This document shows positions 17,602 through 22,826 of a stretch of DNA of 47,764 nucleotides, in pieces (the stretch's first letter is position 1; each line of letters opens with the position of its first letter). Made by a program: the position numbers and the translations under genes. The stretch covers positions 1 through 47,764 of the forward strand of contig JAIVGZ010000034.1 of the NCBI GenBank assembly GCA_020201335.1, written 5' to 3'. The notes under the pieces were generated by a model. It was given only the letters and a program-made list of their open reading frames with translations. It was not told where the DNA came from and did no database searches. Source of the stretch: Natronospirales bacterium. Lineage in GTDB: Bacteria > Pseudomonadota > Gammaproteobacteria > Natronospirales > JAIVGZ01.

Positions 17602-19230
17602 TCAGTGCAGCCCCAATACTCCCGGACCTTGCTCGAACACAATATCCACCGGGATGCCGGCCTCCTCCAGCCGGACAAGGTCGCGCTGCAAGTCGGTGCC
17701 AATTACGCCGCGTTCTGCGAGCAGCCGCCCGGCGCCGGCGTGGTCGCCGTCTCCCTGCAATACCAGTAACCTGTTCGCAAGCGCGCCGACAGCATCCTGC
17801 ATCCGCTCGAAGTCGACGCGGTAACGCCCATCGGGGTCGCGCGCGAACGCGCCGCGCTCAGCAAAAAAGTTGAACTGGATCATGTTCGCCCGCCCGTGCG
17901 CACTCGACGCGCCGAAGCGCACCGAGCGGAACAACCCGGCCATGAAAGTTACGTAGTGGTCGAGCAGCACGCCTTCATGCAGTTCGCCGCGCTCAAACAA
18001 CTGCGTGATCATGTACAGGCCCAACACGTCGGCTTTCGCCTCCTCCAGCGCACCCGCGTGCTCGCGCAATGCCTCGCGCACGGTCCGCTCGCCGTCCAGC
18101 GTGTTCTTGATGCCCAGGCCGTGGGCGACCTCGTGGAACATCACGTTCGAGAAAAACGCGTTGAAGGTCACGTTTCCACGCACATCCGACGCGACGAGTT
18201 GGTCGGCAATCGGGATGAGAATCTCGTCATACTTGGCGCGCATCGCATTGCGCAGCTGCAGGCGACGCGTACCCTGCTCGAGCTGCACCGTTTCATCGTT
18301 CGGAAGGTTGATCGCGATCGTTTTCGAGCCAGCGTTCGCGTCGCCGGCATAATAAACGGCGTCGTATGCATTCAGGTCGGCGTCGGTGCCCGGCGTTTCG
18401 GCCTTGTACGCGTCAGGTACCGGCAGGCCACGCTGCAATTCCGGCAGGAACGCCGCAAAGCGAGCCAGGCGCTCCGACCATTCGATGTCTTTTATCAGTA
18501 CGAAAGCTTCGAACGCCGCGCGGTAGCCGAACAGTCGGTCTTCATAATTCTCAATCGGCCCAATCACGACATCGATGCGGTTGTCACGCATCTGCATCCA
18601 CGCGATGTCGGACGCACGGTAGTCATCGCTCAACAACGCATCAGCGCGCGCCTCGAGGTAGCGCCTCAGCTCGGCGTCTTCGGCGAGTGCCGCAGCCTCA
18701 CGCAGCTTGCGCGCGGCGCGGTTGAGCTCCGTGCCATGCATCTGCGAATAAGGTACGAGTATCAAGTCGCCAGCATCGTTACGCCGCACGTACGAATAGA
18801 GCCCGTCTTTCCCTGGCTCATCCCAGGCCTCGAATTCCTCTACCGACATGTCGGCAGGATAGAAATTCGCGCCGAGCGGCTTCTCTCCGACGCCGGGTAC
18901 GAACGAACGGTTGCCGTCCAGGCGGTCCCACGGGCCGTAGTTGATGCGCGCGAACTCGCGCATCTCCGCTTCGTCGAGCGTTTCCAGCAACGCATCGCGG
19001 TCGCCGTACGCGTTGAACCAGAACAGGTCATCCATGATCTCCGCCGCTTCGATCAACAGAGCTACCATGCGCCGCTCCGCGTCGGTTAGCGCGGTAAGGT
19101 CGGCTTCCAAGCGGACCGGCGCGTAGATGTCTACGCGCTGGGCGGCGCCCTCGGCGGCAGGTTCCGGCCGTTCGCAGGCTGTGAGCGCTACGGTACACAA
19201 GGCAACAGTAATCAGGGTTCTTGTATGCAT
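17602..19230 (-). CDS. M49 (dipeptidyl-peptidase III-like) zinc lipoprotein
   Basis: A 542-residue lipoprotein; the lipobox LTAC is visible in LITVALCTVALTACERPEP. The zinc site is HEVAHG (about residue 365), the pentapeptide HExxH form rather than the HELLGH of eukaryotic DPP III, with the third ligand in EEAKADVLGLYM about 30 residues later. This spacing fits bacterial M49 enzymes that release dipeptides from oligopeptides. The open frame extends far upstream over glrK but ATG 19230 is required for the lipoprotein signal and has TGGAG about 9 nt upstream. It is first in the leftward operon with the Omp85, DUF885 and GNAT-like genes. Confidence 0.9.
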   Translation of the reverse strand: MHTRTLITVALCTVALTACERPEPAAEGAAQRVDIYAPVRLEADLTALTDAERRMVALLIEAAEIMDDLFWFNAYGDRDALLETLDEAEMREFARINYGPWDRLDGNRSFVPGVGEKPLGANFYPADMSVEEFEAWDEPGKDGLYSYVRRNDAGDLILVPYSQMHGTELNRAARKLREAAALAEDAELRRYLEARADALLSDDYRASDIAWMQMRDNRIDVVIGPIENYEDRLFGYRAAFEAFVLIKDIEWSERLARFAAFLPELQRGLPVPDAYKAETPGTDADLNAYDAVYYAGDANAGSKTIAINLPNDETVQLEQGTRRLQLRNAMRAKYDEILIPIADQLVASDVRGNVTFNAFFSNVMFHEVAHGLGIKNTLDGERTVREALREHAGALEEAKADVLGLYMITQLFERGELHEGVLLDHYVTFMAGLFRSVRFGASSAHGRANMIQFNFFAERGAFARDPDGRYRVDFERMQDAVGALANRLLVLQGDGDHAGAGRLLAERGVIGTDLQRDLVRLEEAGIPVDIVFEQGPGVLGLH

Positions 19231-19267
19231 CCGGGAAGCTCCAGGCACCGTGTCGGCCCTAGCATCG

Positions 19268-19273
19268 TACAAT
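19268..19273 (+). promoter_or_regulatory. Candidate -10 element of glrK
   Basis: TACAAT ends 8 nt before the ATG at 19282. CGGAGCG overlaps the interval but sits too close to the ATG for a normal SD. Confidence 0.45.
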
Positions 19274-19281
19274 CCGGAGCG

Positions 19282-20691
19282 ATGCGCCTCAATCCGTATT
19301 CGATAACGGTGCTCGTCACCGCAGGTTTCTTGCTCGTCGCACTGCCGCTCGTAGTCGCGATTCTGTCCACCCATGCGCTGACCGGACAACTCGCGCGCAC
19401 TACCGCCGCCGCGTTCAGCGCCGGCGTGGCTTCCGCGCGCGACGCCCAGATCCTTCAGGAACAGATGACCGCCACCGAACGCAACGCGCGCCAGTACCAA
19501 ATCGTCGGCGACCCCGTGCTGATGATGCTGGTGCGTGACCGGCAGACCCGTATGCTGGACATCCTCGACCGGCTCGACGCTCACCTCGGCGAGCCGGCGC
19601 CGGAAGCCGCGGCATTGCGCAGTGGGCTGCCGGCGCTGGTGGATGCCCTCGCACTCGAGCGAGACACCGACCTGTCCGGCTTCGAACGCCTGCACCCGAG
19701 CGCGCGCGCGCTGTCGGCACGCGTCAACGAAGACATCGACGCAGCCGTGGTAGCCGGCATGCGCCAGGCCGAAGAGACACGGGAGATGCTGCTCGGGCAA
19801 ACGGCACTTTTGATTCCTCTCGCCGCGGTAATCGCTTTCATCTTCGTCGTGCTAATCGTGCGACCGATACGCGCGCTCGCGAAGGCGATCCGGCAGCTCG
19901 GGCACGGCGACCGCCAATCTCCGGTGCGCGTGTCCGGCCCAGCGGACTTTCGGCGCCTCGGTGCACAGCTTGAGTGGTTGCGCGTGCGTCTCGCCGAAGT
20001 CGAGCAGGAAAAGGCACGCTTCCTCCGTCACGTCTCGCACGAGTTGAAGACGCCGCTTGCCAACATCCGCGAGGGATCCGAGTTGCTGCTCGACGGCAGC
20101 GCCGGTGCGCTGGGCGCGCAGCAGGCAGAAATCGCGACCATCCTGCGCGACAACGGCGTCAGCCTGCAGACAAGTATTGAAAACCTGCTGAATTTCAATG
20201 CCTGGCAGGACCGCAACGCCCAGGTCGTGCGTACCGATGCCGACATCGGTACCATGCTTGAGCGCGCCTGCGACGCCCACCGCCTCGCAATCCAACGGAA
20301 CGCTATCCAGATGGTCGTTGCGCACGGGCCCGCGACCTGGTGGGTTGATGAGGAGAAGTTGCAGGTGCTGCTGGACAACCTGCTGTCGAATGCGGTCAAG
20401 TATTCGCCACAAGGCGGCACGATCCGGATCCAGATTCGCGCGGACGGAGACGCCGCGATCATAGATGTCGTCGACGACGGCCCCGGCGTCCCACCTGACG
20501 AGCGCGCGCGCATATTCGAGGCGTTCTTTCAGGGTAGTCGGCCGCAACAAGGCCACGTCAAGGGTACGGGCATCGGGCTGTCGGTCGTGCGCGAATGCGC
20601 GCGCATGCATGATGGCCACGCCGAGGTAATTACCGATGAGCGAGGAGGCGGACATTTCCGTGTCACCATTCCAGGCGCGCTGGGCGGTTAG
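19282..20691 (+). CDS. glrK: GlrK/QseE-like sensor histidine kinase
   Basis: A 469-residue membrane kinase. TM1 (ITVLVTAGFLLVALPLVVAIL), a helical periplasmic sensor of about 145 residues, TM2 (ALLIPLAAVIAFIFVVLIV), HAMP starting RPIRALAKAI, phosphoacceptor H253 in VSHELKTPLANI, N-box DNLLSNAVKYSP, and G-boxes DDGPGVP and GTGIGLSVV. The arrangement kinase-lipoprotein-sigma54 regulator matches glrK-qseG-glrR of enterobacteria, which senses envelope state. The 3' end overlaps the lipoprotein gene. Confidence 0.92.
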   Translation: MRLNPYSITVLVTAGFLLVALPLVVAILSTHALTGQLARTTAAAFSAGVASARDAQILQEQMTATERNARQYQIVGDPVLMMLVRDRQTRMLDILDRLDAHLGEPAPEAAALRSGLPALVDALALERDTDLSGFERLHPSARALSARVNEDIDAAVVAGMRQAEETREMLLGQTALLIPLAAVIAFIFVVLIVRPIRALAKAIRQLGHGDRQSPVRVSGPADFRRLGAQLEWLRVRLAEVEQEKARFLRHVSHELKTPLANIREGSELLLDGSAGALGAQQAEIATILRDNGVSLQTSIENLLNFNAWQDRNAQVVRTDADIGTMLERACDAHRLAIQRNAIQMVVAHGPATWWVDEEKLQVLLDNLLSNAVKYSPQGGTIRIQIRADGDAAIIDVVDDGPGVPPDERARIFEAFFQGSRPQQGHVKGTGIGLSVVRECARMHDGHAEVITDERGGGHFRVTIPGALGG

Positions 20692-21179
20692 CCTGCTGTG
20701 CATCCTGCTCGGCGGCTGTGCGCTGCTGCCGACTGGCAAAGTCGCCACGCAGACCTCGTCCGAGGCTATGCTCGCGACGCTGCAAACTTTCGTCGCGGCG
20801 GACGCGGACACGAAGGCGGCGATTTTTTCTGAGGCAACGAGCGCCGCAGCGCTGACGCCCACTGCCGAGAACCGCCTGCGCGTCGCTTTGCTCCAAGGCT
20901 GGCCTGGCCACCGCTACAGCGCCCCGCGCGAGGCTTCCAACCGACTCGACGCGTTGATCGAGTCCGGCGAGCTCGACGCCGACGGCCAGGGCCTGGCGAG
21001 CGTGCTGCATCACTGGCTCGCACAGCGGGGAACCGACCAGCGGTTGCAGCGCTCATTGCGTGAGCGCATTGCGACCCTCGAGCGTGAGCTGGCCGAGACG
21101 CGCCGGCAACTGGATGCACTTGCGGAGCTCGAGCGTCTTACGACCCCTGTACGTGTACCCTGCAATCAGGAGAACGACG

Positions 21180-22544
<1,365 letters not shown>

Positions 22545-22598
22545 TCGTTCCGAATATCAGTCGCTTGCAGGTGTGCTGGCGTAGCGCGTCGTTGCGCG

Positions 22599-22618
22599 GC
22601 GACACATTGCCGTGTCGC
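22599..22618. promoter_or_regulatory. Perfect palindrome, candidate GlrR upstream activating site
   Basis: GCGACAC-N6-GTGTCGC, seven-base-pair arms, centred about 86 bp upstream of the transcription start predicted from the -24/-12 promoter. That is the usual place for an enhancer-binding-protein dyad. The arm order differs from the E. coli GlrR consensus (TGTC-N10-GACA), so binding by this GlrR is inference. Confidence 0.65.
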
Positions 22619-22667
22619 GAACCTGCGTTTACCCCGCAGACCCCCGCGCTACAAGGACCCCGTTTGC

Positions 22668-22684
22668 TGGCACGCGCCTTGCAT
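22668..22684 (+). promoter_or_regulatory. Sigma-54 (-24/-12) promoter
   Basis: TGGCACG-N4-TTGCAT, a full match to the sigma-54 consensus, with GG at 22669-22670 and GC at 22681-22682. The predicted transcription start is near 22694. The first start codon downstream with an SD is the miniprotein ATG at 22722. Confidence 0.85.
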
Positions 22685-22721
22685 CGTCATTCCCGGACCC
22701 TCATCCAACAAGGAGACAGGA

Positions 22722-22826
22722 ATGTTCGACGAACACGATGAAGACCAGATCCTCGCCGGTCTGTTCGCGGCGTTCTTCGCGCTGGCGTTAATCATGACGC
22801 CGGTCGCGGTCTTCGCCTCAGGCTGA
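22722..22826 (+). CDS. 34-residue single-pass membrane miniprotein
   Basis: A short open frame with strong translation and transcription signals: AAGGAG (22710-22715) 6 nt before the ATG, and a consensus sigma-54 promoter immediately upstream. The product has an acidic N-terminus (MFDEHDEDQ), one hydrophobic helix (ILAGLFAAFFALALIMTPVAVFA) and a two-residue tail. I recognise no family. It follows glrR on the same strand and ends 4 bp from convergent hppA. A sigma-54-driven envelope stress or signalling peptide controlled by GlrKR is the natural hypothesis; alternatively the transcript also acts as a small RNA, as GlmY does in E. coli. Confidence 0.72.
   Translation: MFDEHDEDQILAGLFAAFFALALIMTPVAVFASG

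Follow-up and report, generated by a model that had tools for sequence, protein, structure and literature searches.

The GlrKR two-component system is well studied only in enteric bacteria, where GlmY and rpoE are known as sigma-54 targets of the system. In the QseEGF/GlrKR-GlmY module of the Enterobacteriaceae (PMC6075780, PMC8745638), a three-gene sensor operon goes together with TGTC-N10-GACA operators and with a sigma-54 promoter that adjoins the operon and drives a short transcript. The same parts can be recognized, as predictions from the DNA, in the window analysed here, by which we mean a stretch of 47,764 nucleotides from a bacterium of the order Natronospirales. Their arrangement differs, however: the promoter lies downstream of glrR in the window and upstream of glrK in the enteric module, the operators are two at a fixed 65 bp as against three UAS, and the transcript carries an ORF for a miniprotein in place of GlmY, with no match to the Rfam GlmY or GlmZ covariance models in the window. 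The consensus of the QseF (GlrR) site is TGTC-N10-GACA (PMC8745638), and the site has also been given as TGTN12ACA (PMC6075780).

A further point of reference is MgrB (PMC8404706), which has 47 aa and inhibits PhoQ by feedback. Like MgrB-type regulators, the window product is predicted to be a small, single-span membrane protein in a two-component regulon. The likeness is one of size and of the single span, and a relation in sequence is not expected.

The gene order glrK-qseG-glrR is present in the window (Table 1), with the actual start of glrK probably at 19282. The QseG assignment rests on the lipobox and on a weak score against NF007997 (E 4e-4, 19.6 bits, under the cut-off of 234). For the window GlrR, the best NCBIfam model is that of GlrR (NF011695; 567.8 bits, under the cut-off of 763), and identity to GlrR of other genomes is 50–61%. 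The miniprotein ORF sits between glrR and the convergent hppA, with its stop 4 nt short of the hppA end.

Table 1. Features of the glrK-qseG-glrR locus and of the predicted transcription unit that follows it.
Feature	Position	Strand	Basis or remark
glrK (qseE)-like sensor histidine kinase gene	19225..20691	+	HisKA, HATPase_c and HAMP in Pfam
qseG-like lipoprotein gene	20636..21220	+	Lipobox LLGGC; weak match to NCBIfam QseG NF007997
glrR (qseF), sigma-54 activator response regulator gene	21180..22544	+	Response_reg and Sigma54_activat
Predicted GlrR operator 1, GGTCGCCAAGCAACGACA	22522-22539	+	7/8 of TGTC-N10-GACA; inside the 3' end of glrR
Predicted GlrR operator 2, CGTCGTTGCGCGGCGACA	22587-22604	+	7/8 of TGTC-N10-GACA
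Dyad GCGACACATTGCCGTGTCGC (GCGACAC-N6-GTGTCGC)	22599-22618		Shares only the right half-site of operator 2
Predicted sigma-54 promoter TGGCACGCGCCTTGCAT	22668-22684	+	Full-consensus -24/-12 element
Shine-Dalgarno AAGGAG	22710-22715	+	6 nt before the ATG at 22722
Probable gene for a 34-aa membrane miniprotein, encoding MFDEHDEDQILAGLFAAFFALALIMTPVAVFASG	22722..22826	+	Codon usage, ribosome-binding site, predicted helix

A sequence-only reading of this stretch had claimed a full-consensus sigma-54 promoter after glrR, and our search bears this out: the pattern TGGCACG-N4-TTGCW has a single match in the window, compared with 0.04 expected from shuffles. In the 1.83-Mb genome assembly, which is incomplete (84.75%), the strict pattern is matched three times, versus twice for a reversed control pattern. 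The other two strict promoters (loci L002 and L003, on contigs C40 and C68 of genome G000) lie upstream of a secreted protein to which no function was assigned and of a type IV pilin-like gene. The gene for RpoN is present in the genome, and transcription from the window promoter would be expected to start at about 22695.

Upstream of the promoter are the two putative GlrR operators, each with one mismatch, which in both lies in the left half. They are 65 bp apart, and the promoter follows 81 bp after operator 2, as in relatives. With both strands scanned, this is the single place in the window where two operators and a promoter are so configured. The operator alone is not enriched in the genome (97 matches versus 108 in the control) and was discarded as a genome-wide predictor; a relaxed composite pattern is also at chance level genome-wide.

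The dyad to which the sequence-only reading had drawn attention is present. It precedes the expected transcription start by about 86 bp and the ATG by 113 bp. As a regulator site it fares less well: because the window holds 67 perfect 7-bp inverted repeats with 3–8 bp spacers, the dyad is not significant alone, and relatives have the opposite orientation, TGTC...GACA. We therefore rejected the everted dyad as a GlrR site. It was probably mis-parsed, and the tandem TGTC-N10-GACA copies, which are better supported, are the likelier regulator sites.

For 76 GlrR-type genes in the class, the DNA on the 3' side was compared with that 3' of 71 other NtrC-type genes. An operator with at most one mismatch follows glrR in 25 of 74 cases and other NtrC genes in 5 of 68. 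Perfect operators are found in 17/74 and 0/68 cases, respectively, and an operator with at most one mismatch combined with a good sigma-54 promoter in 20/74 and 0/68. Tandem operators with a sigma-54 promoter occur in 13 of 82 GlrR rows, the window's own included, compared with none of the 71 other NtrC-type genes and none of 1640 shuffles. Some of the GlrR rows are duplicates; L013 and L092 represent a single locus. The full tandem arrangement is absent from 69 of the 82 GlrR loci examined. In the same order, one relative (G005) combines a sigma-54 promoter with two perfect operators at locus L195, and the other GlrR-bearing relative (G001, L194) has no such arrangement.

The distance between operators in the tandem loci is 62–70 bp, most often the 65 bp of the window, and the promoter lies 70–105 bp after the second operator in many loci. 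Between operator 2 and the promoter, the distances fall into clusters at 71, 80–84, 92–94 and 102–103 bp, with the window at 81. These clusters are close to multiples of the helical turn, a pattern that we spotted afterwards; the loci behind it are the window (22522-22684), L006, L010, L012, L013, L090, L107, L108, L114, L126, L129 and L195.

Given the counts of tandem arrangements in GlrR rows, in controls and in shuffles, the comparison gives good support to local control by GlrR. The earlier proposal that GlrR governs a sigma-54 promoter adjoining its own gene thus gains strong support, at the level of DNA sequence, from the operator consensus and from an architecture conserved in relatives. 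The sequence-only reading had named lack of conservation of the ORF or of the -24/-12 element as grounds for refutation. What relatives keep is the promoter; the ORF is not kept, in a comparison that contains no close relative.

The product found in the slot after glrR is not conserved: it can be an EF-hand protein, a BON-domain protein, a small membrane protein, or an ORF-less transcript that ends in a terminator. Among the loci read, the GlrR-adjacent promoter most often serves a small EF-hand protein, in most cases a secreted one. In L005, L006, L087, L090, L098, L103, L107, L112 and L116, the promoter is followed by a small EF-hand protein that scores above the Pfam cut-off, and the same-order locus L195 encodes an 85-aa secreted EF-hand-like protein whose EF-hand score is under that cut-off. 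In L173 and L176, a GlrR-type operator and sigma-54 promoter are located upstream of, and divergent from, the glrK side, where they appear to drive EF-hand proteins. Other slots hold a BON-domain protein (L010), a YgaP-like membrane protein (L187) and membrane proteins without family assignment (L012). In L134, an operator and sigma-54 promoter after glrR are followed by a secreted protein that, judged by eye, looks like OpgG/MdoG of periplasmic glucan biosynthesis. The GlrR-adjacent EF-hand proteins of other Proteobacteria have the slot, the operators, the sigma-54 promoter, a small envelope product and acidic residues in common with the window. They differ in being about 63–141 aa long and mostly equipped with a signal peptide, whereas the window product has 34 aa, a membrane span and no EF-hand. 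A search of the open-access literature, a scope outside which most subscription journals fall, found nothing on GlrR/QseF together with EF-hand proteins or ybgC.

This variety bears on what the window product might do. By analogy with MgrB (PMC8404706), it could be a feedback regulator, made when GlrR is active and binding the membrane part of the sensor so as to damp or boost signalling; its size and single span, the proximity of its gene to glrKR and the GlrR-type promoter would all suit such a role. We nevertheless regard this as unlikely, as a slot product that changes from EF-hand to BON to membrane protein, or to no ORF, behind the same GlrR is unexpected for a dedicated sensor partner. 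As the products differ greatly among relatives with the same sensor, a role as an effector of the response would be likelier than feedback on the sensor.

Some relatives have transcripts in this slot that resemble small RNAs. L111, L114, L126 and L129 have no evident ORF and a strong terminator, whose T-run ends 118–184 nt after the expected start. Candidate GlrR-dependent small RNAs are L111, L126/L209, L205-L208 (the G155 family), L114, L129 and L178, the last of which is a longer and weaker candidate. After glrR, these loci have operators and a sigma-54 element, which is sometimes degenerate, and would give transcripts of about 100–185 nt that show no evident ORF and end in a strong intrinsic terminator; several lie before ybgC. 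In the G155 family, a CU-rich 3' motif, CTCCCCC, precedes the terminator in five of six loci, with a shorter form in L208. The -12 element of this family is degenerate (TTGA/TTGT) in most loci, so its sigma-54 dependence is less certain. No convincing Rfam family match was found among the loci submitted.

The window transcript could likewise be a small RNA with an incidental ORF, an alternative already raised by the sequence-only reading. It would agree with the control of GlmY by GlrR in enterics (PMC6075780) and with the ORF-less, terminator-ended transcripts of several relatives. Against it, no + strand terminator was found after the ORF, the fold z-score of the transcript is only -1.9, and Rfam gave no match at gathering score in the window and none at E<=1 for the stretch around glrR (L085). 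On these grounds we rejected a GlmY-like RNA in the window, and the strong in-frame codon signal described below further disfavours a small RNA, which we consider highly improbable here.

The claimed ribosome-binding site and 34-codon ORF with one predicted transmembrane helix are confirmed. When the intergenic stretch is shuffled, 1.5% of the shuffles contain a Shine-Dalgarno element with an ORF of 30 aa or more, and 0 of 5000 contain one whose ORF has a membrane-helix-like segment. With glrK, glrR, hppA and thiC of the window as reference, the frame of the ORF scores a codon log-likelihood of +18.5 and the two other forward frames score -20.4 and -17.4, over only 34 codons, and the synonymous codon choice alone exceeds 3000 of 3000 random synonymous versions. 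AlphaFold2 predicts a single helix over residues 4–33 (mean pLDDT 91), and the hydropathy peak is 2.4. Codon usage and the ribosome-binding site both back the ORF as coding, and we take it for a probable gene. Its product has a strongly acidic N-terminus that lacks K and R altogether; by the charge rule, this tail could face the periplasm.

In line with the earlier reading, which recognised no described family, the peptide has no match in Pfam or NCBIfam, and Pfam detects no EF-hand loop in it. The remaining 18 genomes of the order yielded no homologue, and the 369 genomes of the class gave chance-level matches only; those at E 0.07–1 were set aside as chance. Four of the genomes with such weak matches have a listed orthologue of GlrR (G083, G102, G156 and G262), and in each of them glrR and the match are on separate contigs. 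This genome is the sole representative of the window's family. With no homologue in the 369 and 18 genomes, the gene is therefore without comparative support of its own.

An orphan of this size might be a decaying remnant, such as the signal-peptide end of an EF-hand gene lost from behind the GlrR promoter. The same-order slot holds a secreted EF-hand-like protein with a hydrophobic signal-peptide N-terminus, the end of the window ORF (...VFASG), 4 nt away from the hppA end, resembles a cleavage region, and a confident EF-hand gene was not found in this incomplete genome. However, an acidic N-terminus devoid of positive residues is unlike a signal peptide, and the ribosome-binding site, promoter and codon usage are all intact, so that we hold decay to be distinctly unlikely. 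That promoter and ORF are there by coincidence would be consistent with a peptide known from a single genome, but the shuffles and controls, both for the tandem-operator configuration and for the Shine-Dalgarno element with a membrane-like ORF, leave very little room for chance.

We infer the following sequence of events. GlrK, with QseG, would phosphorylate GlrR, and GlrR-P would bind the tandem operators and activate RpoN polymerase at the -24/-12 promoter. The resulting short mRNA would be translated into a 34-residue miniprotein, predicted to span the inner membrane once and to carry an acidic N-terminal tail. The miniprotein would fill the local output slot of GlrR, which in relatives is taken by other small envelope proteins or by a terminator-ended RNA, and would most likely serve the GlrKR response as an envelope effector rather than as a conserved sensor partner. 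We consider it probable that this account is right as a whole, that is, that a GlrR-driven sigma-54 promoter expresses a membrane miniprotein that is an orphan envelope effector of the GlrKR regulon. A bolder version is possible, although we find it doubtful: the peptide would be a new lineage-specific membrane regulator, acting back on GlrK/QseG or tuning an envelope machine, and the 3' side of glrR a plug-in slot in which small proteins and small RNAs are swapped behind an unchanged switch.

The orphan miniprotein joins the list of possible envelope-stress effectors, but the conserved local output slot is a more general result than the miniprotein itself. A conserved GlrR promoter adjoining glrR in many other Proteobacteria would provide a built-in reporter of the pathway. 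The variety of products behind it suggests that one regulator may keep its local promoter while swapping what that promoter expresses, be it an EF-hand protein, a membrane miniprotein or an RNA.
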